From Leptolyngbya sp. SIO1E4 (GTDB taxonomy: Bacteria; Cyanobacteriota; Cyanobacteriia; Phormidesmidales; Phormidesmidaceae), in NCBI GenBank assembly GCA_010672825.2, contig JAAHFU020000007.1, forward strand, positions 62,001-126,000: DNA of 64,000 nucleotides. Reading direction: 5' to 3'. Below the pieces are notes generated by a model, which saw only the letters and a program-made list of their open reading frames with translations, did no database searches and was not told where the DNA came from. Each line of letters begins with the position of its first letter. Position 1 is the first letter of the stretch. The position numbers and the translations under genes were made by a program. Shown piece by piece: positions 15,841 to 62,489 of the stretch.

Positions 15841-18834
15841 ATGGTACCAGACGAGGCATACCGCGAAGCAGAGCGACGGATTGAGGCGGCTCGGAAGGAG
15901 GGGGCTACGAAACTCGATCTCAGCCACATGGAGCTGAACTCAGTGCCGAAAGAATTGGGCAATCTCAACAATCTGACTGAGCTTTCCCTTTCCCATAATC
16001 AACTCACTGCGGTGCCGAAAGAATTGGGCAATCTCAATAATCTGACCGAGCTTTCCCTTTACCGGAATCAACTGAACTTGGTACCAAAAGAATTGGGTAA
16101 TCTCACCAATCTAACTTGGCTTTACCTCTATCAAAATCAACTCACTGCGGTGCCGAAAGAATTGGGCAATCTCACCAATCTGACTCGGCTTGACCTTGAC
16201 CAAAATCAACTGAATTCGGTGCCGAAAGAATTGGGTCAACTCGCCAATCTACAAGAGCTTTATCTCTCCGACAATCAACTCACCACAGTGCCGAAAGAAT
16301 TGAGTCAACTCAGCAATTTAAAGGTGCTTGACCTTTCCCAAAATCAATTCACCATAGTGCCCTTGGAATTGGAACAGCTTGCCAACCTGACAGAGCTTAA
16401 CCTCTCCCAAAATCAACTCACCACGGTGCCGAAAGAATTGGGCCAACTTGCCAATCTAATGGTACTTTACCTCGACCAAAATCCTTTAGACCCGGAATTG
16501 GCAGCAGCCTATGGACAAGGACTTGAAGCAGTTAAAGAATACTGGCAAGCCTTAGCTAAAGAGCAAATTGTCCTCAATGAAGCCAAGCTTATTTTGGTAG
16601 GAGAGGGAGAAGTGGGCAAAACTAGTTTGCTAGGCGCGCTGCGAGAAGATGAATGGATTGAGAGACGTCCGGCTACTCAAGGGGTCGAAGTAGACATCAA
16701 GTCCCTAGTAGTTACTGATCAAAACAGCGGTACAAAAATTACTCTTAATGGTTGGGACTTTGGAGGGCAAAACATTTACCGCCATACTCATCAACTCTTT
16801 TTCACTGCACCAGCCATTTACCTGGTTGTGTGGAATCCCCGTCGTGGACCAGAGCAATGTCGAGTGGATGAGTGGATCAAAATGATCAAGCTCCGAACTC
16901 ATGACGCCCAACCGGATGCTAAGCCCTACATTTTTGTCGTGGCAACCCACGGTGGCCCGAAGGAGCGACTTGACCACATCGACGAACAGGCCTTACGCGA
17001 AGAATTTGGTGATCTGATTGTTGGCTTTCATCATGTCGACAGCAAAACCAAGTATGGTCTGGATGAATTGAAGCAGCTGATTGCCCACTCAGCCGCTAAT
17101 ATTCCTCAAGCGGAGCGCACTGTTCCGGTTAGTTGGAAGCGGATGCTATATGCGATCCGCCAGCGCGGTGAAACTGATGCCTGGATTACTTACGAGCAAT
17201 TTCAAACCCTCTGTGGCGAGCAATCAATTAATTTAACCCTGGTCAAAACCTACGCCGCTATCCTCAATGAATTAGGGTATTTGATTCACTACAGCACCGA
17301 CCCTGTGTTGAAAGATACTGTTATCCTCAAGCCCGAGTGGCTCAGCAAAGCTATCAGCTTCGTTCTAAAAGACGAGCAAGTTAAGGAAAATAATGGGTTG
17401 GTACGCCATAGCCGCCTCAGTGAATTATGGGATGACCCTGCACGTGGTGAAGATCGCTATCCTCCTCATCTGCATCCTGTGTTTCGCAAACTGATGGAGC
17501 GTTGCGATTTGTCCTATCAGGTGGAATTGCCTGAAGCTGATGCGCCTACTACTACCCTGATAGCGCAACTGGTGCCCAGCAAACGCCCCGACGACTGGGA
17601 GCAAGATTGGGTATTGAAACCAGGTGACACCGAATGCACCCAAATCTGCCGCCTGTTGGACAAGGAGTCCGGGCGCTTGGTTGAGGCTAAAGGACTGATG
17701 TATCGCTTGATTGTACGGCTGCACCGCTACTCCCTCGGACGCCACAATTACTACCTCAGTCGCCACTGGAAAAGTGGCCTAATGCTTGATGATGGCTTTA
17801 ACGGTCGTGCCTTTATTGAAGAAATTGGCAGCGATGTCTACGTCACTGTACGAGCGGCATACCCTAGTGGGTTTCTAGGATATCTCTGTGCCGACATCCA
17901 CTGGCTAGTGCAGTTTTTTTGGCCAGGGATTGACCCTAGGCTTTATATCCCCTGCCCGACAGAAAGCTGTAAAGGTTTGCTGGAGCGAGATGAAATCATT
18001 GAGTTCAAGGCTGAGGGAATACCCAAAGTTCGCTGTCCTGTCTGCCGCCAGTTCCACAGTATTGATTCATTAATGGCGACCACCATTGCTCAGCCCGAAT
18101 GGCAAGATGCAGTCACTGAACTCAAGCAAGGCCAACAGCAAATTCTTGCTGCCTTTGATACGGGCTTCGACTCCCTGAGTGTCCAACTCAAAACCTTAAT
18201 GAGTCAAGCCGATGAACAGTTCGAAGCACTGCTCACTACATTGACCGATCCAGCCAAAGATGGACCAAGACTTTTCAGCTTTGAACCCGTTGACCCTAGC
18301 TTCTGGAATAAACCCAAATGGGTTGCCCAACGGTTTCGACTTACCCTATGGTGCGAACATCGACGGTTGCCACTCCCTGTGCTGAACGGTGAAGGCGATA
18401 ACCGGGGCGTCTATGAGCTTGAGCTAACACGGGACTGGATTAAGCGGGCCTCACCTCTGCTGCGAATCCTCTCCGTCACGCTCAAACTTGCCCTACCGAT
18501 CGCTATTCCTGGAACCAAACTCGCTACCAACGAGACGGAATATAACGCCATTGCTGAACAGCTTGAATTTGGGGTAAAGTCTGCAAATTCCTTTCTCTCA
18601 GGTAGTGACCCAATCGGTGATTGGTTGGTGGATGGGAATGCTACTAATTTTGATCAGACTAGAGCCAACACCAGATCCGTGATTCGTGCTCAAGGCTCTG
18701 TGCTACGCGAACTGCATGCCCTCTTAAAGGAGCAAGATCCTGCCAACAGCTTTGGTGGACTCGAACTAGTGCAAAACAAATGCCAAGAGTTTCTCTGGGT
18801 ACATGCCGATTTTGTCAGCGAATATTATCAGTGA
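15841..18834 (+). CDS. LRR-Roc-COR (Roco) family GTPase
   Basis: 997 residues. About nine leucine-rich repeats of 23 residues (consensus LTxLxLxxNQLTxVPKELGxL; residues ~22-215) precede a Roc GTPase with P-loop GEGEVGKTS (254-262) and a G3-like WDFGGQ. A COR-type dimerisation region follows (from about LKPEWLSKAISFVLKDEQ), then a Cys pair set (CPTESC...CPVC, around 700-735) that could bind zinc, and an uncharacterised C-terminal domain. Bacterial Roco proteins are dimeric GTPases whose cycle is tied to dimerisation; their cellular roles are mostly unknown, and relatives of LRR-NTPase sensors are plausible. The LRR units are very similar to each other, indicating recent expansion. It stands alone 10 bp upstream of a hydrolase gene. 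Confidence 0.88.
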   Translation: MVPDEAYREAERRIEAARKEGATKLDLSHMELNSVPKELGNLNNLTELSLSHNQLTAVPKELGNLNNLTELSLYRNQLNLVPKELGNLTNLTWLYLYQNQLTAVPKELGNLTNLTRLDLDQNQLNSVPKELGQLANLQELYLSDNQLTTVPKELSQLSNLKVLDLSQNQFTIVPLELEQLANLTELNLSQNQLTTVPKELGQLANLMVLYLDQNPLDPELAAAYGQGLEAVKEYWQALAKEQIVLNEAKLILVGEGEVGKTSLLGALREDEWIERRPATQGVEVDIKSLVVTDQNSGTKITLNGWDFGGQNIYRHTHQLFFTAPAIYLVVWNPRRGPEQCRVDEWIKMIKLRTHDAQPDAKPYIFVVATHGGPKERLDHIDEQALREEFGDLIVGFHHVDSKTKYGLDELKQLIAHSAANIPQAERTVPVSWKRMLYAIRQRGETDAWITYEQFQTLCGEQSINLTLVKTYAAILNELGYLIHYSTDPVLKDTVILKPEWLSKAISFVLKDEQVKENNGLVRHSRLSELWDDPARGEDRYPPHLHPVFRKLMERCDLSYQVELPEADAPTTTLIAQLVPSKRPDDWEQDWVLKPGDTECTQICRLLDKESGRLVEAKGLMYRLIVRLHRYSLGRHNYYLSRHWKSGLMLDDGFNGRAFIEEIGSDVYVTVRAAYPSGFLGYLCADIHWLVQFFWPGIDPRLYIPCPTESCKGLLERDEIIEFKAEGIPKVRCPVCRQFHSIDSLMATTIAQPEWQDAVTELKQGQQQILAAFDTGFDSLSVQLKTLMSQADEQFEALLTTLTDPAKDGPRLFSFEPVDPSFWNKPKWVAQRFRLTLWCEHRRLPLPVLNGEGDNRGVYELELTRDWIKRASPLLRILSVTLKLALPIAIPGTKLATNETEYNAIAEQLEFGVKSANSFLSGSDPIGDWLVDGNATNFDQTRANTRSVIRAQGSVLRELHALLKEQDPANSFGGLELVQNKCQEFLWVHADFVSEYYQ

Positions 18835-28444: not shown

Positions 28445-28547
28445 TGTAGCCTTGTTCAGGTGAGTCCAGCACATCTGGATCAAGACAGGGTCTAGGGTCT
28501 AGGGTTTGGGGTCTAGGGTGGGCATTATCCACATGCAAACCGCTATA
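28445..28547 (+). repeat. MITE-like element, copy 2 (full length)
   Basis: 103 bp from TGTAGCCTTGTTCAGG to TGCAAACCGCTATA, with internal AGGGTCT/AGGGTTT heptamers. It differs from copy 6 (62387-62489) at only three positions. Confidence 0.85.
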
Positions 28548-43857: not shown

Positions 43858-46800
43858 TCAGTTGGGCAATTCAGTGGGAATGCCGTCGCAGAGGGTGCGT
43901 TCTTCCTCTGTGACATTGGCATTATGCTGCAAGTAATCGCGCAGCCAGTTACAGCCCCGAACCAGCAAATGCTCAGGGTTAAGGTCATAGAGCATCACAG
44001 TGTCATCGTCGCTAGCGGAGGCGAGGGTTTGACCATCGGGGCTAAAACTCACACTCCAGACCGCGGAGCGATGACCTTCTAAGGTTATGAGTTCTTCTCC
44101 CTGCCGGCTCCAGAGCTTGACGGTGCTATCGGCGCTAGCGGAGACGAGGGTTTGACCATCGGGGCTAAAACTCACACTCCTGACCCCGAAGCGATGGCCT
44201 TCTAGGGTCATGAGTTCGGCACCCTGCAGGTTCCAGAGCTTAACAGTGCTATCGGCGCTAGCGGAGACGAGGGTTTGGCCATCGGGGCTAAAACTCACAC
44301 TCCAGATCCAGTCGCGATGACCTGCTAGGGTCTGGAGCTCGGTACCCTGACGACTCCAGAGCTTAATGGTGCCATCGGCGCTGGCAGAGGCGAGAATTTG
44401 GCCATCGGGGCTAAAACTTACACTCAAGACCCAATCACGATGACCTTCTAAAGTCATGAGTTCTTCTCCCTGCCGACTCCAGAGCTTGATGGTGCCATCG
44501 GCGCTGGCAGAGGCGAGGGTTTGGCCATCGGGGCTAAAACTTACACTCAAGACCCCGTCGCGATGACCTTCTAGAGTCATGAGTTCGGCATCCTGCCGGC
44601 TCCAGAGCTTGACGGTGCCATCAGCGCTGGCAGAGGCGAGGGTTTGGCCATCGGGGCTAAAACTTACACTCAAGACCCAGTAGCTATGACCTGCTAGAGC
44701 CTGGAGTTCGGTGCCCTGACGACTCCAGAGCTTGACGGTGCCATCGGCGCTGGCGGAGGCGAGGGTTTGGCCATCGGGGCTAAAACTCACACTCCTGACC
44801 CAGTCGCGATGACCGGCTAGGGTCATGAGTTCGGTGCCCTGCCGACTCCAGAGCTTGACGGTGCCATCGGCGCTGGCAGAGGCGAGGGTTTGGCCATCGG
44901 GGCTAAAACTCACACTCAAGACCCCGTCGCGATGACCTTCTAGAGTCATGAGTTCGGTGCCCTGACGACTCCAGAGCTTGACGGTGCCATCGGCGCTGGC
45001 AGAGGCAAGGGTTTGGTCATCGGGGCTAAAACTCACACTCCAGACCCCGTCGCGATGCCCCTCTAAGGTTAAGAGTTCTTCTCCCTGCTGGCTCCAGAGC
45101 TTGATGGTGCCATCGGCGCTGGCAGAGGCGAGGGTTTGACCATCGGGACTAAAACTCACACTCCTGACCCAATAGCGATGCCCCTCTAAGGTTAAGAGTT
45201 CTTCTCCCTGCCGGCTCCAGAGCTTGATGGTGCCATCGGCGCTGGCAGAGGCGAGGGTTTGGCCATCGGGGCTAAAACTCACACTCCTGACCCAGTCGTG
45301 ATGACCTTCTAGGATCATGAGTTCGGTGCCCTGACGACTCCAGAGCTTGATGGTGCCATCGGCGCTGGCAGAGGCGAGGGTTTGACCATCGGGGCTAAAA
45401 CTCACACTCCAGACCCCAGAGCGATGACCTTCTAGGGTCAAGAGTTCTTCTCCCTGCCGGCTCCAGAGCTTGATGGTGCCATCGGCGCTGGCGGAGGCGA
45501 GGGTTTGACCATCGGGGCTAAAACTCACACTCCAGACCCCGGAGCGATGACCTTCTAGGGTCAAGAGTTCTTCTCCCTGCCGGCTCCAGAGCTTGATGGT
45601 GCCATCGGCGCTGGCGGAGGCGAGGGTTTGACCATCGGGGCTAAAACTCACATTCAAGACCCCGTCGCCATGACCTTCCAACTGGTTTTCCTCTTGCATC
45701 CCCTGCAATAGCGTCCACAGTTGGCTGGTGGTTTCCAGTTTTTCTGCGCCAGGCAGGTTAATCCGTGGCATTCGACGAACCGCCCCAACACTGGCAACCA
45801 ATGCCTCTAACTGGTTATCCGATAAAAAAAGCGCTTGCGAGGCGGTACTGAGCGCTTCGATTTCGCTCCGTTCTGCCCGAATTCGTTGGCGGTCTCTCGC
45901 TTGAGCAATGGAGTAGGTCAAGATACCCAGAAGCCCCACGATGCCTAAGGCAATGCTTGTGACCATCGTGGCCCGTTTTTGCAGTTTCAACCGCTGTTCC
46001 AGAGCCTGACTTTTTCCCGCCAGGGCTTCATTCTTATCGGCCAGGGCTTTATTCTTTTCCGTTAACAACAGTGCTGCTTTCTCGTCTGCTACCTGCTTGG
46101 CTAACAGCGCCTGCCGCTCCCCTTCTTTGGCTGCTTCCAACTCCGCCATCAACCCTGGCGTCTGCACAGTCCGCACATAGCGCACCAAATAGTCGTGCAC
46201 CAGCTGATACCGGTCTTCCGGTTCCTCTGGGATCTCAAACACCAGCCCCGAACCCACCAAAATCGACAGCACCATGCTCAGCTGGTCAGGCTTAAACGGC
46301 ATCTCCAGCAGCGACAGCTCATATTCAATCTCCTCCCGCGTCTTCAACGGGCGATAGAGGCGCTGGTCGCGATCCTCCTCGGTGAGCAGATATAGCACCA
46401 CCCAGGCCAGCCGTTCATTGGGGGGGCCGCAGTCATGCACCACATAGGCCAAAAACTCCTGCACCAGGGTTTCCTTGGGTGACTCCCCCAGCGCCTCATA
46501 CTGGGCCAATGTGTTCACTTCCTTGCGCTGCAGCTGCGCCCCCACCACCTGCAGCTCAATGGGGCGCACGTCCCCGGTTTCTGCCGCCAGATCCGCCACC
46601 AACCGCTGCACCAGTGCCTCTTCCAGCGTGTACTGAGCCGCTGTCGTCAGCTGCCGAATCACCGCTTCCGCCGCCGTGGGGGTAAAATTCGCCAGCGAGT
46701 AGCGCACCTCCTGACTCAGCATGTCCAGAACTTCCACCCCGCTCATGGGGCTGACCTGGTTGATGATGCGCTCTGCCTCAAGCAAGTGGTGCAGGTAATC

Positions 46801-48879
46801 TTCCCGTAGGGCCAACACCACCTTGACCCACGGCTGGTCAATGCACTGCTGCAGAAATTCATAAAAGCTGCGCCGCTCTGGCAGCGTCATCTTGTCAAAA
46901 AAGAACTCCTCAAACTGGTCAAAAATGAGGATAAAGAAGCGGTTTTTGGCCACCCCGATGCGGAACTGAGCCAACAGCGTTTCTGGGGTGGGGGTGTCGG
47001 AGGCATCAGGGGTGGGGGCGTCGGGGTCACGCCAGGGGGCCAGGGCTTTGTTGAGTTCGGCGGCAATGCCCTGCTGCCAATTGCCGTAGGTCTGCACCAA
47101 AATCGGCAACGTGATACGACCCTGGGGATACACGGTTCGAATGGCGGGCAACAGTCCGGCACTGAGGATAGAGCTTTTGCCCACCCCCGATGGCCCATGG
47201 ATGATGATCAGCTGATGCTGATCGGCCTGGAGGCGATTGACCAGCGCTTCGACATCCTGCAGACGACCCGACGCTCGGATTTCAGCAGCGACGGCGGTAT
47301 GGGTCGCCTCATCCAGACGCTGGGCTACGGCGGTTCGCTGATGGGGCTGCACGGCTCCGGCCCCAACGAAGGCCCGCAGGTTATAGCGATATTCCACCTG
47401 ACGGAGTTCTTGCTTTGCGTCAAAGGCTTCCCAATAGTGGCCCAGGTCAAAGTGGTGGTGAATCAGCTCTTCTAAGACCTGACGATGCAGGGTCAGGTCT
47501 ACTTCGGGGTCCGTTTCCCAGCGGGCCGCTTCCAGATATTGGATTGCAGCCTCTGGGTCGTGCAGGTGCATCTGGGCTTCCCCCAGCAGGAAGCGATACC
47601 AGCCCCGTTGAAAGCTATTGGCAATGTCTAGGGCATTGGCGAGATCAATGTTTTCTGGATTCGCGGTGAGGCCCTGTTGCGCAGTTTTGAGCAGGGCCAG
47701 TGCCTGGTTTGCTTCGCTCTGGGCGGTGAGCCAGTCTTCACGAATTAGGGCAACTTCTGCCAGAAAGCCGTGGTCTCGGGCCAAACGAATGGCATCCCTG
47801 GTTTCTTGATGGAGGGTAATGCCTTCTACGGCTAAAGTTTCTAGCATTTCCCAATCGCGCTGCTTTTGGCGCACTTCGGCCAGCACATGGATAAAGCGCG
47901 CTAATCGGAGCCGCTGATCTTCTTCTCGAAAATGCTGCAGAAGCTGTTCAAAATACTGGCGGGCCTGTCGCAATGAGGGCTGGTAGGTAACCCGTTGTAA
48001 GACGGCATAGCTACGCCACCAGAGGCCTAAGTGCAGCCAGAGCACGGCTCGCTTATCGGCTGGCGTTGGGGGTGGGGTCAGGGTGTCTGCCCGGGTATCG
48101 GGGTGAATACCGGTCTCTACCTGGGTTTGCCAGTGGGCCAGGCTGCGTTCATAGCAGACGCGGGCGGTGTCCATTTCTAGACGGCTGTGAGCTTCTCGCC
48201 CGCGCAAAAAATCCAGGCTGGCAGTCAGATCGGGGTCGGGGGTGTAGCCGCTGGCAACCAGATCTTGAATGGCAAATTCGACTTCACTGCGGAGGGCGTC
48301 GCTGCCTTTTAAGCGAATTGACGGAGGGGTGAGGTCGCGATCGCCCCCCTGCTCCAAAATATTAAAGAAAAGCTGGTTGGTGCCTGCGTGGAGAGCATAG
48401 AGCAGCTCGCCTGGCGGCAGGCTGAAGGCAATGGCAGAGGGGCTAAAGCTCCGCAGGTCTGGGGCATAGCGGGCAAAGTGCTGCCGCACCCGCTCTGTCA
48501 TCCACAACACGATGGGGAAGGGAAAGTGCTTGCGAAACTCATCGCGTGAGAGGTTGGCCCCTTTTAGCACGGCTATCAATTCTGCTTCCCCCAGCAGCTC
48601 TAGCCCGGTGACTAGCAGGGCCGGTGGCGGGGCGCGATCGATGTAGGTGTGGATGGTCTCGATGAGGCTGGTAATGGGGGACGGTAGTCGCAGCACCATG
48701 GCCTGGTTTGCCTGGGCAAACTGATCGACCACTAGATTGCGCAGGCGATTATAGTTGCAGGCCGCCACTGTGAGAGAAAATTCGCCAGCTTCTCGCCGCA
48801 GTACGATGCGCAACTCCTCCAGGCTGGTCTGGTTGGACTGCAGGAGTTCGGCATCTGAGTGGGGATGGGAGTCGACCAT
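43858..48879 (-). CDS. STAND NTPase with TPR-like region, coiled coil, membrane helix and 14 WD40 repeats
   Basis: 1673 residues. Order: N-terminal ATPase-like domain without P-loop (LLVTGLELLGEAELIAVL, FPFPIVLWMTERV), TPR-like helices, a STAND-type NTPase (Walker A GPSGVGKSS near residue 560, Walker B FILIFDQFEEFFF near 650), a coiled coil (about 920-970), one membrane helix (IALGIVGLLGILTYSIA, about 976), then fourteen 41-residue WD40 repeats (1066 to about 1640), enough for two seven-blade propellers. STAND proteins oligomerise on ligand binding and serve in signalling, apoptosis-like and immune roles. The WD40 part probably senses the ligand. The partner and output are unknown. An AAA-type ATPase gene lies 151 bp upstream on the same strand. 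Confidence 0.9.
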   Translation of the reverse strand: MVDSHPHSDAELLQSNQTSLEELRIVLRREAGEFSLTVAACNYNRLRNLVVDQFAQANQAMVLRLPSPITSLIETIHTYIDRAPPPALLVTGLELLGEAELIAVLKGANLSRDEFRKHFPFPIVLWMTERVRQHFARYAPDLRSFSPSAIAFSLPPGELLYALHAGTNQLFFNILEQGGDRDLTPPSIRLKGSDALRSEVEFAIQDLVASGYTPDPDLTASLDFLRGREAHSRLEMDTARVCYERSLAHWQTQVETGIHPDTRADTLTPPPTPADKRAVLWLHLGLWWRSYAVLQRVTYQPSLRQARQYFEQLLQHFREEDQRLRLARFIHVLAEVRQKQRDWEMLETLAVEGITLHQETRDAIRLARDHGFLAEVALIREDWLTAQSEANQALALLKTAQQGLTANPENIDLANALDIANSFQRGWYRFLLGEAQMHLHDPEAAIQYLEAARWETDPEVDLTLHRQVLEELIHHHFDLGHYWEAFDAKQELRQVEYRYNLRAFVGAGAVQPHQRTAVAQRLDEATHTAVAAEIRASGRLQDVEALVNRLQADQHQLIIIHGPSGVGKSSILSAGLLPAIRTVYPQGRITLPILVQTYGNWQQGIAAELNKALAPWRDPDAPTPDASDTPTPETLLAQFRIGVAKNRFFILIFDQFEEFFFDKMTLPERRSFYEFLQQCIDQPWVKVVLALREDYLHHLLEAERIINQVSPMSGVEVLDMLSQEVRYSLANFTPTAAEAVIRQLTTAAQYTLEEALVQRLVADLAAETGDVRPIELQVVGAQLQRKEVNTLAQYEALGESPKETLVQEFLAYVVHDCGPPNERLAWVVLYLLTEEDRDQRLYRPLKTREEIEYELSLLEMPFKPDQLSMVLSILVGSGLVFEIPEEPEDRYQLVHDYLVRYVRTVQTPGLMAELEAAKEGERQALLAKQVADEKAALLLTEKNKALADKNEALAGKSQALEQRLKLQKRATMVTSIALGIVGLLGILTYSIAQARDRQRIRAERSEIEALSTASQALFLSDNQLEALVASVGAVRRMPRINLPGAEKLETTSQLWTLLQGMQEENQLEGHGDGVLNVSFSPDGQTLASASADGTIKLWSRQGEELLTLEGHRSGVWSVSFSPDGQTLASASADGTIKLWSRQGEELLTLEGHRSGVWSVSFSPDGQTLASASADGTIKLWSRQGTELMILEGHHDWVRSVSFSPDGQTLASASADGTIKLWSRQGEELLTLEGHRYWVRSVSFSPDGQTLASASADGTIKLWSQQGEELLTLEGHRDGVWSVSFSPDDQTLASASADGTVKLWSRQGTELMTLEGHRDGVLSVSFSPDGQTLASASADGTVKLWSRQGTELMTLAGHRDWVRSVSFSPDGQTLASASADGTVKLWSRQGTELQALAGHSYWVLSVSFSPDGQTLASASADGTVKLWSRQDAELMTLEGHRDGVLSVSFSPDGQTLASASADGTIKLWSRQGEELMTLEGHRDWVLSVSFSPDGQILASASADGTIKLWSRQGTELQTLAGHRDWIWSVSFSPDGQTLVSASADSTVKLWNLQGAELMTLEGHRFGVRSVSFSPDGQTLVSASADSTVKLWSRQGEELITLEGHRSAVWSVSFSPDGQTLASASDDDTVMLYDLNPEHLLVRGCNWLRDYLQHNANVTEEERTLCDGIPTELPN
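43961..45682 (-). repeat. Fourteen 123-bp tandem repeats encoding WD40 blades
   Basis: Each unit encodes x-GHxxxVxSVSFSPDGQTLA followed by SASADGT and KLWSRQG. Most differences fall in the three residues after GH, the first residue of the strand (L/W/R), and the linker (EELLT, TELMT, TELQA). Outer units 12-14 are the most diverged. Confidence 0.95.
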
Positions 48880-49030: not shown

Positions 49031-50332
49031 TTACTGCTGGGTTTCCCACTGTTTAAAGACCTCGGTTTCCGCCAAAACGGGGTTGATATCGACCCAGCGC
49101 CCGCGATCGTCTCGATACTCATAGAGAAAGAGACTCCGTAGCAAACTATTGTAATCACTGTCGCCCTGAAGGTTACGGGCCTTAACGGCTCGAAACAGCA
49201 GTTGCCACTCATGCGCGTCAATTAACCCCAGCATGTCGTTGCGTTCATCTCGAATGACCCGCTCCAGGGTATCGCGAGAAATGGGCGGATCTTGCTTCCG
49301 CAGACAGCTATAGAGATAGCGCACCAGGTTGCGCATGTGGCCACCGCTAATGGTACAGAGGCGATCCAACGTATTGGCGTCATCAAAGAGAGTGTGTAGG
49401 TGAGCCAGGCGATCGCGCGCTGACAAATCAGGAAACGCTCGGGCCAGCACCATCTGGCGCAGTTTTGCCAAACTCAAGGCGTTGATCTGACCGTCCAGGT
49501 TCGTGACGGGTACCATTGACAGCACCACGGGGCTGACCCCAAAGCGATTGGTCAACACGGGCAGGTCATCGGAGAACACTAGGGAGAGGGGAATGGTATA
49601 GAGCACATGGCAGTTCAGCCGTTTGAGCTGCTCTCCCCGATCTACAAAGAGATATTCGGGCTGCAGGCGATCGCCCAGCTTGCGGGTTGTATAGACCCGA
49701 TCGAGGTTGTCGACCACCGCAACCAGCCCCGCCTTGCCCTGGGTTTTGAGACGGGCGATCGCAGGCTCCAGCAGTTCTTGATTGATGGCATCGAGAATGT
49801 TTTTCGTGCGCGGCTCCAGATATTGGTGCAGCTGGCTGCGCAGGTCAGCGCTGTCTTTAGACTGGGTTGTGATGGTGGCAATGCCCATCGACAAGCTGAC
49901 ATCAGAAATTTCCACCGGCATCCGCAAAGTGTCAGAAATGCTCTGAAACAGCCGCTGGAAATAATTAGGCTGCAGGCTAATGCCCACGGATTCTAAGCTG
50001 GCGCTGATTTGCCGGGCAATGACCAACAGAATGTCGGTCACTTCTACATCAGACATTTCCAGGTCGCGATCGGACTCAAAATAGACGACATGGTAGTCAG
50101 CGGCCTCGAGTTGAGCCTTCAAGCGAAACAGCTCCGTCGATTTCCCAGAGCCAATATGCCCGGTAAGCAACTGCGTGGTGGGCTCGTCTGGTGACAGCCG
50201 AATAATGGTGCGAGCCAGCTCCTGGACAATGTCGCCCCCTCTAACTTCCGAAAAGTCGATGTAGTACCGATTATCTTGAATCGGGCTACTCGGATTTGAG
50301 GCCTTAAAGAAGCGATTGATATCCAGCAACAT
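49031..50332 (-). CDS. AAA-type ATPase partner of the STAND protein
   Basis: 433 residues. N-terminal YYIDFSEVRGGDIVQEL, Walker A GHIGSGKST (58-66), Walker B GLVAVVDNLDRVY, sensor-like LYTIPLS, and a C-terminal region with SGGHMRNLVRYLYS typical of STAND/ORC-like helices. A regulatory ATPase by family; substrate unknown. ATG at 50332 has GGGAG 8 nt upstream, better than the in-frame GTG at 50353. It lies 151 bp before the WD40-STAND gene in the same direction, suggesting one operon. Confidence 0.85.
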   Translation of the reverse strand: MLLDINRFFKASNPSSPIQDNRYYIDFSEVRGGDIVQELARTIIRLSPDEPTTQLLTGHIGSGKSTELFRLKAQLEAADYHVVYFESDRDLEMSDVEVTDILLVIARQISASLESVGISLQPNYFQRLFQSISDTLRMPVEISDVSLSMGIATITTQSKDSADLRSQLHQYLEPRTKNILDAINQELLEPAIARLKTQGKAGLVAVVDNLDRVYTTRKLGDRLQPEYLFVDRGEQLKRLNCHVLYTIPLSLVFSDDLPVLTNRFGVSPVVLSMVPVTNLDGQINALSLAKLRQMVLARAFPDLSARDRLAHLHTLFDDANTLDRLCTISGGHMRNLVRYLYSCLRKQDPPISRDTLERVIRDERNDMLGLIDAHEWQLLFRAVKARNLQGDSDYNSLLRSLFLYEYRDDRGRWVDINPVLAETEVFKQWETQQ

Positions 50333-50427
50333 GGGCGCGGCTCCCAACGGCACGCCCTTTATAGCACGTGTGTTTGCGTCTCTCTGGCAGATTTGAAGGA
50401 ATCCTTCAAGTCAGGTTGGCCGTCATT

Positions 50428-52353
50428 TCACCGGGGCTCTGACTTGAGGGGCCGGGTCTCTGACTGCTCTAAATAATGCTCAAAGCGGGATTTTAGGGCT
50501 GTAGATGACACCCCTTGTGTCCAATATTCCACCAGTGCCTGACCCCAAGCCCAGGCATTGTGGGCCGGGGGGCGATCGTTGTTGAGCAGCAACAGCGGCC
50601 ACAATGTGAGCATCTCGCTGGGACGAAAGACGCGATTTTGCTCAGTCAAGAGACCTGCGAGTTCGGCGGTTAGCATGAGCTTATTGACGACCACGGGCAC
50701 CTGCTCAGCAGGAATCGTTTGGGCCAGCAGATTGCCGAAGTCTGGCGTGCCAGTCAGCCGAGCGGAAAGAGCCGCAAACACTGGGGTCTTGACCATGGCT
50801 ACAAGACCTTGGCCCCCCGCCATTTGCAGTGCATAACGCTCAATCAGGCGGGCGGCGGCGGCGATGCGGGCGTCGCGGCTGCGCAAAAACTGGGCCAGTC
50901 TTTCTGCCTTGGCAGGGGCGATCGCCGCCAGCAGCTGTAGCGCTAAGGCATCACTTCCCCAAGCGGGACGACCGTCAGCCGTCCCAGCGGTCACGACTGG
51001 AAATATCTGCTGTACCCAATCTCCCAACTGCTCCTGACGGTAGGCCACCGCGTCACGAATATTGCGTTCTTTCAGGCGATCGCCCCGTTGCCAATCGTAA
51101 GGCGGCTGCCATTCTCGTAGGGGCCGCAGCCGATCTACCTGGGTCACCACCAGCAATACTGGGTTCTCTCGGTTGGGCTGAGCCACTGCTTGCAAAAATG
51201 CCAGGTCGGCTTCCAGGGCTGGATCCATGGCTGGGCTAACGAGTAACAGCACATCTGCGATCGCCGCTTGCGCTAACACCTGCTGCCGTAAATCGGCCCG
51301 ATCCACCTGTTCATAGCCAGGGCTATCCCAAAGGATGAGGGCTTCTTGGGTCGGGGTTTCCCAGCGATAGCTGGTGATTTGATCGGTGCTGGGCAGCACA
51401 TCCACCGCTGCCTGCTCCTGTTGAAACAGGGTGTTGATCAAACTGCTTTTACCGGCCCCCGTCCGCCCGACTAGCAGCAAGTTGATGGGCTCAGCCGCGA
51501 TCGCCTCTGGGGAAGCTGCCTGCTCCATTAAGTCCCGTAGGGTTTGGGCTTGGGCTGGAAGGGGGGGTGGGCTTTCTAAGACCAGCGCCGTTTGCCCGCC
51601 ATAGAGCGCGATCGCCTGACGACAGAGAATGGTCAGCGCCATTTCCCGCAGGGTTTGGCTAAAGGTGATCAAAAGCTGCTGATTGGCCTGTTCACCCAAA
51701 GGACGACTCATGCGCTTGGCCGCCGCCGCGATCGGATTCCAAAGCCATTCCCCCAGATTCAGCACCTTCGAGATGCGTCGCAATGGCCCTTCGAGCGCCT
51801 GGTAGGTTTCGTAGGTTTGATAAACCTGGCCGACTGTAACCTGATTGAGGGTCGGGGCAGCCACCTGCATCCAGCGATCGAGGTCATCTACGGTGCCGCG
51901 AATTAAGCCGTAGGCTTGGGGCACATAAATGTTCAGCAGTGGATATTTCACCTCGGGGTGATACAGGTGAGCAATGTCGAGCACCAATTTCTGGCAGCGT
52001 TGGCCGAAGGTGGGCCAATCTTCCCACAGGGGTAAATCTTCCCGCGCTGCTTCCAGGGTTTGTCGCAGCACCGCCTCAACCTGCTCAGGCGAAACGGTTT
52101 GAGCTGTTTCAGCAAGGGTGTTCTGTAGCTGTGACTGGGCGGTTTCTAAGGTCTGTTCTAGGGTGACCGAACTCGGCCGTGTCCAGCGACTCAGCAGCCA
52201 GCGCCAGCCCACTGCCCCAACGGCAACCAACCCCCACGCCCAACTCAGCCCCCAGGCATGCATCTGAATAGCGGCAACAATGCCTAACCCACTGATCAGT
52301 AAAATCGGCGGTGCTAGCAACAGTCCCCACTGCCAACGGTTTAGCCTTACCAT
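50428..52353 (-). CDS. Membrane-associated GTPase
   Basis: 641 residues. Two N-terminal hydrophobic helices (LLLAPPILLISGLGIVAAI and LSWAWGLVAVGAVGW) precede a helical region and a GTPase domain with G1 GRTGAGKSS (near 294), G3 WDSPGYEQ and G4 TQVD, then a helical C-terminus. It belongs with TRAFAC-class GTPases of the YfjP/dynamin-like surroundings; exact family not recognised. It starts 6 bp after the next GTPase gene, whose stop overlaps its ribosome site, so the two are coupled. Confidence 0.83.
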   Translation of the reverse strand: MVRLNRWQWGLLLAPPILLISGLGIVAAIQMHAWGLSWAWGLVAVGAVGWRWLLSRWTRPSSVTLEQTLETAQSQLQNTLAETAQTVSPEQVEAVLRQTLEAAREDLPLWEDWPTFGQRCQKLVLDIAHLYHPEVKYPLLNIYVPQAYGLIRGTVDDLDRWMQVAAPTLNQVTVGQVYQTYETYQALEGPLRRISKVLNLGEWLWNPIAAAAKRMSRPLGEQANQQLLITFSQTLREMALTILCRQAIALYGGQTALVLESPPPLPAQAQTLRDLMEQAASPEAIAAEPINLLLVGRTGAGKSSLINTLFQQEQAAVDVLPSTDQITSYRWETPTQEALILWDSPGYEQVDRADLRQQVLAQAAIADVLLLVSPAMDPALEADLAFLQAVAQPNRENPVLLVVTQVDRLRPLREWQPPYDWQRGDRLKERNIRDAVAYRQEQLGDWVQQIFPVVTAGTADGRPAWGSDALALQLLAAIAPAKAERLAQFLRSRDARIAAAARLIERYALQMAGGQGLVAMVKTPVFAALSARLTGTPDFGNLLAQTIPAEQVPVVVNKLMLTAELAGLLTEQNRVFRPSEMLTLWPLLLLNNDRPPAHNAWAWGQALVEYWTQGVSSTALKSRFEHYLEQSETRPLKSEPR

Positions 52354-52359
52354 ATGCCC

Positions 52360-53553
52360 TCAATTGTCCGGCGTATACGTGTTTTGCCACTCCTGCTTCG
52401 CTTGTTGAAAGGTCTTACCCATGAGCTGTTGGATAGCTTTAGGGTCAGGCACTTTTCCAGCCATCAAATCCCCAAAATAGACGCAGGCCCCTTCCCCTAA
52501 AGCCCAGGTATAGGCAACCGACCAGGAAGTGGCCACAATGCTGCCAATCCCAGGGACGAATTTGATCAGCTCTCGCCCGACGGCCTGTGCGAAAAACCCT
52601 CCCGCCAGGCTGCTAACCACCCCCAATGCCTGGGACACGTTCAACGTTTGGTTATAGACGCGGCCCAAGACAACCACCATCGAGACTTGCAGACTGGTGA
52701 GCACTGGCATCGTGGCAAAAGGGAGGGGCACCGCTGCCGCCACCCCAGCCATGACGGCAAAGGCGCTGATGTAGCGACGAGCCACCTGGCGATAGATATC
52801 TCCGATCGCTTTGCCCCGACTATCGGTTGTCAGCAATTGATGGATGGCCTGGGCTTCTGCCTGGGGCAACAGTTTATCCAGGGTATCTCTCAACGCTTCC
52901 AGGCCATAAAACATCGGGGTATAGCCATCTTCCTCCAAGGTAAAGTCAAGCAGCAGGGTGCGATCGCAGCAGGCTGCAAAGTCCGTCTGAATGGCCTCGA
53001 CGGCCCGGGTAATCGCGGTCTGCTGGGGCGGATAAGGGGGATGATTCTCTGCCGGTGATGGGTACAGCTCGTGAAGGCAGGTCACCGCTAGCAGACATGG
53101 AATATGAGGAGACGCCTGTCTCAGCTGCGTAATCACATGGCGCAGGCTATCTGTCGCAAAGTCGGTAACTTTGACGGTCAAGATAAAGAGGCGCGATCGC
53201 TGAGGGGCTTGGGTTAAAGTCTGCTGCAAAGCCGTTGTGATATCTGCCGTTGTGCGCTCCACATCCCCTAACCCAACCGTATCTGTGAAGATGAGCAACG
53301 GTAGCTCCTCGGAAGGGTAGGGGTAACGCTGGGTATGACGAGTGTGGGGACGAAATCCCTGACCCACGATATCTGCTGGTTGCCCCGTCAGCCCTCGCAC
53401 AATGGAACTTTTGCCTGCCTGTGGTTTCCCAATCAAAATGACTTCAGTCGTAGGCAACTGGTCACGCACGGCCTGTAGATGAGCGGCAATCTGAGCCTCG
53501 CTGACAAAAAAACGCTGCCAAATATGCCGTAGCGGTGTCAGAAATCCCTTCAC
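52360..53553 (-). CDS. GTPase with DUF697-like membrane region
   Basis: 397 residues. G1 GKPQAGKSS (near 43), switch region HTQRYPYP, G3 DTVGLGD. The G4 position reads TCLHE rather than NKxD, so guanine specificity is uncertain. The C-terminal half has hydrophobic helices (AFAVMAGVAAAVPLPFA, VSSLAGGFFAQAVG) as in DUF697 GTPases. It is the upstream member of the tightly spaced GTPase pair. The role is unknown; membrane stress or remodelling would be a guess. Confidence 0.82.
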   Translation of the reverse strand: MKGFLTPLRHIWQRFFVSEAQIAAHLQAVRDQLPTTEVILIGKPQAGKSSIVRGLTGQPADIVGQGFRPHTRHTQRYPYPSEELPLLIFTDTVGLGDVERTTADITTALQQTLTQAPQRSRLFILTVKVTDFATDSLRHVITQLRQASPHIPCLLAVTCLHELYPSPAENHPPYPPQQTAITRAVEAIQTDFAACCDRTLLLDFTLEEDGYTPMFYGLEALRDTLDKLLPQAEAQAIHQLLTTDSRGKAIGDIYRQVARRYISAFAVMAGVAAAVPLPFATMPVLTSLQVSMVVVLGRVYNQTLNVSQALGVVSSLAGGFFAQAVGRELIKFVPGIGSIVATSWSVAYTWALGEGACVYFGDLMAGKVPDPKAIQQLMGKTFQQAKQEWQNTYTPDN

Positions 53554-62386: not shown

Positions 62387-62489
62387 TATAGCCTTGTTCA
62401 GGTGAGTCCAGTACATCTGGGTCAAGACAGGGTCTAGGGTCTAGGGTTTGGGGTCTAGGGTGGGCATTATCCACATGCAAACCGCTATA
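62387..62489 (+). repeat. MITE-like element, copy 6 (full length)
   Basis: 103 bp, TATAGCCTTGTTCAGG to TGCAAACCGCTATA. It differs from copy 2 at three positions, showing recent spread. Confidence 0.87.

Follow-up and report, generated by a model that had tools for sequence, protein, structure and literature searches.

What do fourteen closely similar WD40 blades do at the C-terminal end of a STAND protein from Leptolyngbya sp. SIO1E4, and do the few positions at which they differ form a recognition surface? The gene lies in a stretch of 64,000 nucleotides (the window). A sequence-only reading of it had proposed a fast-evolving recognition surface on a membrane-anchored STAND switch with a pattern like that of fungal HNWD NLRs.

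The STAND gene and its WD40 array

The following features are relevant here (window coordinates, strand):

43858..48879 (-): STAND-WD40 receptor gene, ORF of 1673 aa
48295..48879 (-): N-terminal domain (residues 1-195), kept in relatives; candidate signalling or effector part
47440..48198 (-): TPR-like helical region (approx. residues 228-480), with profile matches to PDB TPR proteins
46180..47268 (-): nSTAND1 NTPase domain (residues 538-900), Pfam PF20703, E 3.6e-30
45898..45972 (-): predicted transmembrane helix (residues 970-994), from a simple hydropathy scan
43960..45681 (-): array of 14 WD40 units with 41 aa each; unit positions 5, 6, 7 and 9 vary (29, 37 and 40 too)
43858..43959 (-): C-terminal tail past unit 14, stop codon included
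49031..50353 (-): companion P-loop ATPase of 440 aa, directly upstream of the STAND gene; the pair is conserved in relatives

The assignment as a STAND protein was borne out by the nSTAND1 domain, which scored 106.3 bits against a cut-off of 27.1 and is a P-loop domain. In Pfam, NACHT reached only 20.8 bits and stayed under its cut-off of 26.7, and a HET domain was absent among the families listed. No known effector domain was found with Pfam or PADLOC. None of the PADLOC defence models matched the protein significantly; LmuB (E 0.0017) matched the P-loop only. Residues 1-195 gave no match in Pfam or among PDB sequences, and an AF2 model of residues 1-200 was set aside as unusable with a pLDDT of 38. 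The best PDB profile matches of the TPR region were located at residues 280-384, and TPR_12 was present in 21 of the 28 family members scanned. A charged stretch lies between the nSTAND1 domain and the hydrophobic helix. This one predicted helix agrees with the proposed membrane anchor.

The array starts at residue 1067 and runs from window position 45681 down to 43960 (unit register L1 E2 G3 H4). It consists of 14 units without any indel, each with 41 residues or 123 bp, exactly as the sequence-only reading had it. Tandem Repeats Finder detected 13.7 copies of 123 bp in the window with 89% matches and a score of 2357. The description of the units as near-identical holds for units 1-13 with a mean DNA identity of 87% (76-94%) and a mean protein identity of 84%, but not for the diverged unit 14 with 67-76% DNA identity. 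Over all 14 units, the median blade identity was 83% and thus above the 60% criterion for highly repetitive (WRAP-like) propellers.

The triplets after GH are GDG, RSG, RSG, HDW, RYW, RDG and RDG in units 1-7 and RDW, SYW, RDG, RDW, RDW, RFG and RSA in units 8-14; the list given earlier was correct on recount. The same applies to the switching at the first strand residue, position 9, which is L in five, W in five and R in four units. Codon 9 (TTG/TGG/AGG) and codon 7 (GGG/TGG/GCG) showed amino-acid-changing differences only and none that were synonymous. Protein differences among the units cluster at positions 5, 6, 7 and 9, but are not confined to them, as 29, 37 and 40 vary too. Positions 25 and 27 are nearly fixed.

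All four gametes were present at 166 of 253 informative site pairs, with 177 expected under free exchange, a pattern that can also arise by recurrent change. Neighbouring units were slightly more alike (rho -0.22, p 0.04). No closely similar units were found elsewhere in the genome; the next-best DNA was 66-76% identical over parts of a unit pair, and the best match outside the array had 83% identity over 47 bases. Other WD40 genes of the genome were therefore rejected as exchange partners, the similar DNA being either short or only 66-76% identical, which points to homogenisation or exchange within the array. Judged by its units, the array is a recent, mosaic amplification in which the framework was kept while positions 5, 6, 7 and 9 vary. 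Unequal exchange and conversion among units would supply the variants, and selection would retain new combinations.

Elsewhere in the window, a 997-aa LRR protein (15841-18834, +) carries a GTPase-like P-loop region after its repeats, Roc-like on visual inspection. The LRR part consists of tandem 69-bp units with 76% matches and represents another candidate for a repeat-amplified sensor. An AGGGTCT heptamer repeat occurs twice (28487-28519 and 62429-62461) at a distance of 34 kb.

Variable positions, selection and geometry

Positions under selection in fungal repeats served as a yardstick. According to excerpts of two papers, diversifying selection acts on the WD40 codons 7, 9, 25 and 27 of Podospora anserina, which are located at the top of a propeller model (PMC1805685, PMC2873952). 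A 2025 paper lists, in the part available, high dN/dS at positions 10, 11, 12, 14, 30, 32 and 39 of another register (PMC12222747). These would be 5, 6, 7, 9, 25, 27 and 34 in the present register, with a shift of five deduced from the correspondence of 12, 14, 30 and 32 to 7, 9, 25 and 27. Both position sets derive from independent data; the seven-position set was met after the variation in the window was known.

The seven-position set ranked high in the variability of the window array (permutation p 2.7e-4), followed by the four-position set with p 0.013. Among related arrays, namely 13 family proteins with at least 6 units and a median identity of at least 60% (L098 with 13 of its 14 units), which fall into 8 framework groups, the seven-position set reached p 4e-5, or 4.5e-5 without the window. 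This part of the proposed likeness to fungal HNWD proteins stood, but the nearly fixed positions 25 and 27 of the window array and the lack of closely similar units elsewhere in its genome do not fit the fungal pattern. Over the 13 family arrays, the most variable positions were 7, 25 and 9 (top three of 41), followed by 6, 2, 40 and 37. In L053/L074 and L102, position 27 has a low variability rank.

Ten further arrays were most variable at 7, 9, 25, 6 and 34. They are ten out of twelve with a median of at least 0.59, L139 and L149 having been dropped with fewer than five gap-free units, and four of them (L140, L142, L143 and L144) are contig-edge fragments from which the N-terminus, and with it the basis for a family assignment, is absent. 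In the six intact arrays of proteins outside the family, positions 25, 7, 9, 6 and 34 ranked first, and none of 100000 random sets ranked as high. Of these proteins, L128, L141 and L146 carry TIR and L123 carries nSTAND1; L124 has neither of the two among the families listed, and L122 lay outside the domain scan. In L128 (255-5165, +) and L146 (4695-8027, -), three TIR_2 matches per protein precede a repetitive WD40 array with a median identity of 61% and 79%, respectively.

Selection was estimated as pairwise dN/dS over all but the final unit of every array, a measure that ignores recombination and saturation. For the 12 youngest arrays, it amounted to 2.50 at positions 7 and 9 (bootstrap 1.77-4.48), compared to 0.33 at 2, 37 and 40 and 0.20 outside the seven-position set. 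The seven young arrays of the STAND family alone gave 4.24 (2.92-9.85), 0.36 and 0.21, respectively, and all 23 arrays together 1.36 (1.07-1.81), 0.43 and 0.24. Since dN/dS of the whole seven-position set is only about 1 (1.06, 0.83-1.39), the excess lies at 7, 9 and 25, which exceeded the remainder in 23 of 23 arrays. The expected concentration of amino-acid changes at the variable positions was thus observed in the young arrays of relatives, but not in the window alone. There, the overall dN/dS was 0.40 and the four-position set was not significant (Fisher p 0.06 with 14 units, 0.17 with 13 units), a weak test because a single array is too small. Six proteins outside the family were scanned for non-receptor control arrays and none was clearly non-receptor: next to the TIR and nSTAND1 proteins named above, L139 carries nSTAND1 as well, and L124 showed a P-loop pattern only, with 25 families listed.

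An AF2 model of the array (pLDDT 62, pTM 0.45) was used for strand limits only. It places four strands per unit at approx. positions 8-13, 19-24, 29-33 and 38-42; its global fit to 2YMU was poor (rmsd 25.5) and its overall arrangement is unreliable. Since strands alternate up and down within a blade, the loops 5-7 and 25-28 would be on one face with position 9 just inside the first strand.

Among 56 WD40-bearing proteins, the hydropathy scan predicted one hydrophobic helix between STAND and WD40 parts in 39, none in 16 and two in one; the scan is crude and flagged an additional upstream hydrophobic stretch in 26 of the 56, including the window protein. The N-terminal side of the helix was richer in Lys/Arg in 36 of 40 scored cases, with four ties (the window protein among them) and no reversed case, a count that may be biased by a lysine-rich stretch preceding the helix. 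Following the positive-inside rule, the Lys/Arg-rich flank lies on the cytoplasmic side. Together with this charge bias, the rule suggests that the propellers are located outside the cytoplasm.

Distribution, companion ATPase and array turnover

Of the 63 genomes from the host's family, 53 contain the STAND body (residues 1-1066) at E 1e-30; class-wide, it was detected in 113 of 290 sampled genomes at E 1e-60. The host genome contains one copy, and no second genome of the host genus was among those searched. A scan of genome contigs gave one distant match in a Planctomyces MAG; viral contigs yielded no match with an N-terminal alignment. For comparison, 81 loci were used, i.e. the window and 80 regions taken non-randomly from the better matches; set A1 comprises 28 of the 81 loci and set A2 13 ATPases.

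In 72 of the 81 loci, the ATPase gene precedes the STAND gene on the same strand at a distance of at most 1.5 kb; the median gap was -3 bases. Its nearest Pfam family is nSTAND_NTPase5, under the cut-off of that family. In the host's family, both genes were adjacent in 46 of the 53 STAND-bearing genomes (hand count). Of the seven others, the contig breaks off within the gene or shortly before it in three (G018, G029, G060), and G059 is undecidable; the ATPase was lacking upstream in G048, G050 and G062, where approx. 0.9, 1.9 and 4.7 kb of sequence are present. Two adjacent GTPases (50428-53553, -) are encoded just upstream of the pair in the window. They showed partial similarity to LeoA/LeoBC dynamin-like defence models (E 3e-12 and 9e-7) and no match at E 1e-10 in 40 relatives' regions (L032-L071) with limited flanks.

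As counted with our own profile, 27 of the 81 loci have 14 WD40 units, 23 have none and the others between 3 and 19; the median internal array identity ranged from 28% to 93%. The 23 unit-less loci include contig fragments (e.g. L033, L041, L042) and L034, whose contig ends inside the array. Four of the 23 carry propeller-like repeats of another type (ASYEG..GFTPD..GLVT), namely L073 (2871-8066, -), L054, L066 and L067, with bodies 66-87% identical to those of WD40-bearing relatives. In seven close relatives (L032, L035-L040) with body identities of 50-69%, the array is missing and the protein stops before, in or just past the transmembrane helix. Thus, the array was either gained or rebuilt in the lineage of the window gene, or lost in these relatives, and it may be dispensable.

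Bodies and arrays were compared in four sets of loci of our own choice. In genus g8, the bodies of L053, L055, L056 and L065 were 87-93% identical, while their arrays of 10-16 blades shared 38-86%. L073, with a body 85-86% identical to these four, has near-identical repeats of another propeller type. Going by these identities, the array was replaced in this genus while the body remained nearly unchanged. The body of L072 was 77-80% identical to those of the four, and its array showed 76% identity to L055, 74% to L065, 63% to L056 and 39% to L053; compared with L055 (body 79%) and L065, it evolved no faster than the body. The pace was also similar in clades g7 (L046, L047, L049, L050) and f32 (L091-L094) with arrays at 73-83% and bodies at 69-80%. 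In both clades, blades pair one-to-one across species, with same-index best matches in 168 of 168 (g7) and 164 of 168 cases (f32). The set L084-L086 was intermediate (bodies 66-82%, arrays 46-74%). Fast evolution, as originally claimed, is therefore supported from the side of relatives by the turnover in g8 and by dN/dS in young arrays, but two clades of the family are slow.

The slow clades differ in their treatment of the variable residues. Within one protein of g7, blades differ at positions 6, 7, 9 and 25 in 0.71-0.80 of comparisons, but orthologous blades differed there in only 0/84, 6/84, 0/84 and 3/84, respectively. Positions 2, 35, 37 and 40 differed between g7 orthologues in 0.36-0.63, position 34 was not conserved (0.57) and position 5 was average (0.20). 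In f32, orthologous blades differed at 7, 9 and 25 more often than at an average position (0.26-0.31 compared to 0.20), and at 5, 6 and 34 in 0.43-0.52. This pattern and position 34 in g7 speak against a uniform constraint. One stable clade thus conserves the variable residues strictly, a second lets them diverge mildly, and in young arrays they are diversified.

Alternative readings and known systems

The gene is best read, with a probability of about 0.64, as encoding the sensor of an NLR-like system of two genes that is widespread in Cyanobacteria and most likely recognises a fast-changing non-self partner, which could be a phage, a predator or a competing strain. In this system, a P-loop ATPase would be followed by a membrane-anchored STAND protein made up of N-terminal domain, TPR region, nSTAND1 domain, transmembrane helix and WD40 array. 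As in WRAP (2YMU), the 14 blades would fold into two propellers of seven blades each, with the variable residues lining one face and binding the changing partner. Binding is then expected to flip the STAND switch and to cause oligomerisation, and the signal would pass via the N-terminal domain, the companion ATPase or both. A more far-reaching version is tentative and, taken as a whole, rather doubtful. It describes a transmembrane NLR with cytoplasmic STAND part and ATPase, whose propellers beyond the membrane would read an external, fast-changing partner through a code at 5-7, 9 and 25 (27, 34) shared with fungal allorecognition NLRs, and whose lineages would alternate between frozen and re-amplified sensors.

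A neutral young repeat would also gather its differences where a WD40 blade tolerates them, with no role in recognition. WD40 propellers have often been amplified recently, and decaying forms are among them, as reported in excerpts of a 2022 paper (PMC9218822); the selection tests on the window alone were not significant, several close relatives do without an array, and f32 orthologues diverge somewhat faster than average at 7, 9 and 25. This explanation is nevertheless unlikely: dN/dS exceeds 1 at 7 and 9 but is 0.33 at the likewise variable 2, 37 and 40, and positions 6, 7, 9 and 25 are so well conserved between g7 orthologues, despite their differences between blades, that they are not free there. 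That same clade, keeping blade-specific residues across species, behaves as expected for a constant partner. The propellers might accordingly be a scaffold for a cellular component, the variation tracking co-evolution with the cell's own proteins, and the STAND protein has no known effector domain. Such a self partner leaves the replacement of arrays on 87-93% identical bodies in one genus unexplained and appears slightly less probable still than a neutral repeat.

Mutation of the variable codons by error-prone reverse transcription was considered as well, given that retroelements diversify STAND sensors of multicellular bacteria according to part of PMC10907252. The codons GGG/TGG/GCG and TTG/TGG/AGG are not adenine-centred, and the variation is spread over 14 units. 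Diversity-generating retroelements leave an adenine signature at mutated codons. This mechanism was rejected on codon patterns alone and is highly improbable.

If recognition of a changing non-self partner is the correct reading, bacteria and fungi have reached, or inherited, the same solution for a rapidly renewable receptor, namely a constant switch with a copied WD40 blade of which few top-face residues carry the specificity. Frozen and young arrays within a single protein family would then be a natural before/after pair for studying code and ligands. STAND proteins with a WD40 sensor of recent amplification are a known kind, and WRAP-type amplification is known as well. What the present case adds are variable positions in common with fungal receptors, the occurrence of both frozen and renewed arrays in a single family, and the pairing with a companion ATPase. 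Searches of the open full-text PMC literature led to papers on highly repetitive propellers and on fungal NLRs; in the sections seen, neither a fungal position code in bacterial arrays nor this ATPase-STAND pair was found.

The best PDB match was WRAP (Npun_R6612) from Nostoc punctiforme (PDB 2YMU, E 2.1e-228), which shares the W/R differences at unit position 9 but has a different blade framework. To our knowledge, no binding partner of WRAP-type propellers is known. Excerpts on WRAP describe 14 near-identical WD40 blades that form two 7-bladed propellers in the crystal (PMC6805158). According to the 2022 paper, as far as its text was available, WRAP has no synonymous changes, whereas the window array has many; that text reports independent propeller amplification and no recognition-surface code, and cites Dunin-Horkawicz et al. 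2014 on WRAP and innate immunity (PMC9218822).

Fungal HNWD/HET-E NLRs resemble the window protein in their NTPase switch and highly similar mosaic WD40 repeats, as described in portions of three papers (PMC1805685, PMC2873952, PMC12222747), and their diversified unit positions overlap those of the window family. They differ in having a HET domain and NACHT, a varying repeat number and, in nature, an exchange of repeats both inside single family members and from one member to another. The window protein instead has nSTAND1, an uncharacterised N-terminal domain, a transmembrane helix and a companion ATPase, gives no indication that units were exchanged with genes elsewhere in the genome and belongs to a family in which 14 is the most frequent count. 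Avs and bacterial NACHT systems share the tripartite STAND architecture with a C-terminal sensor, going by part of PMC10907252; unlike them, the window protein has no known N-terminal effector and no significant PADLOC match, and carries a membrane helix before the sensor. STAND sensors diversified by retroelements in multicellular bacteria likewise place a hypervariable C-terminal sensor on a STAND protein, as an excerpt of the same paper indicates (PMC10907252). Their sensor is a C-type lectin mutated by the retroelement, whereas in the window WD40 blades are varied by repeat turnover.
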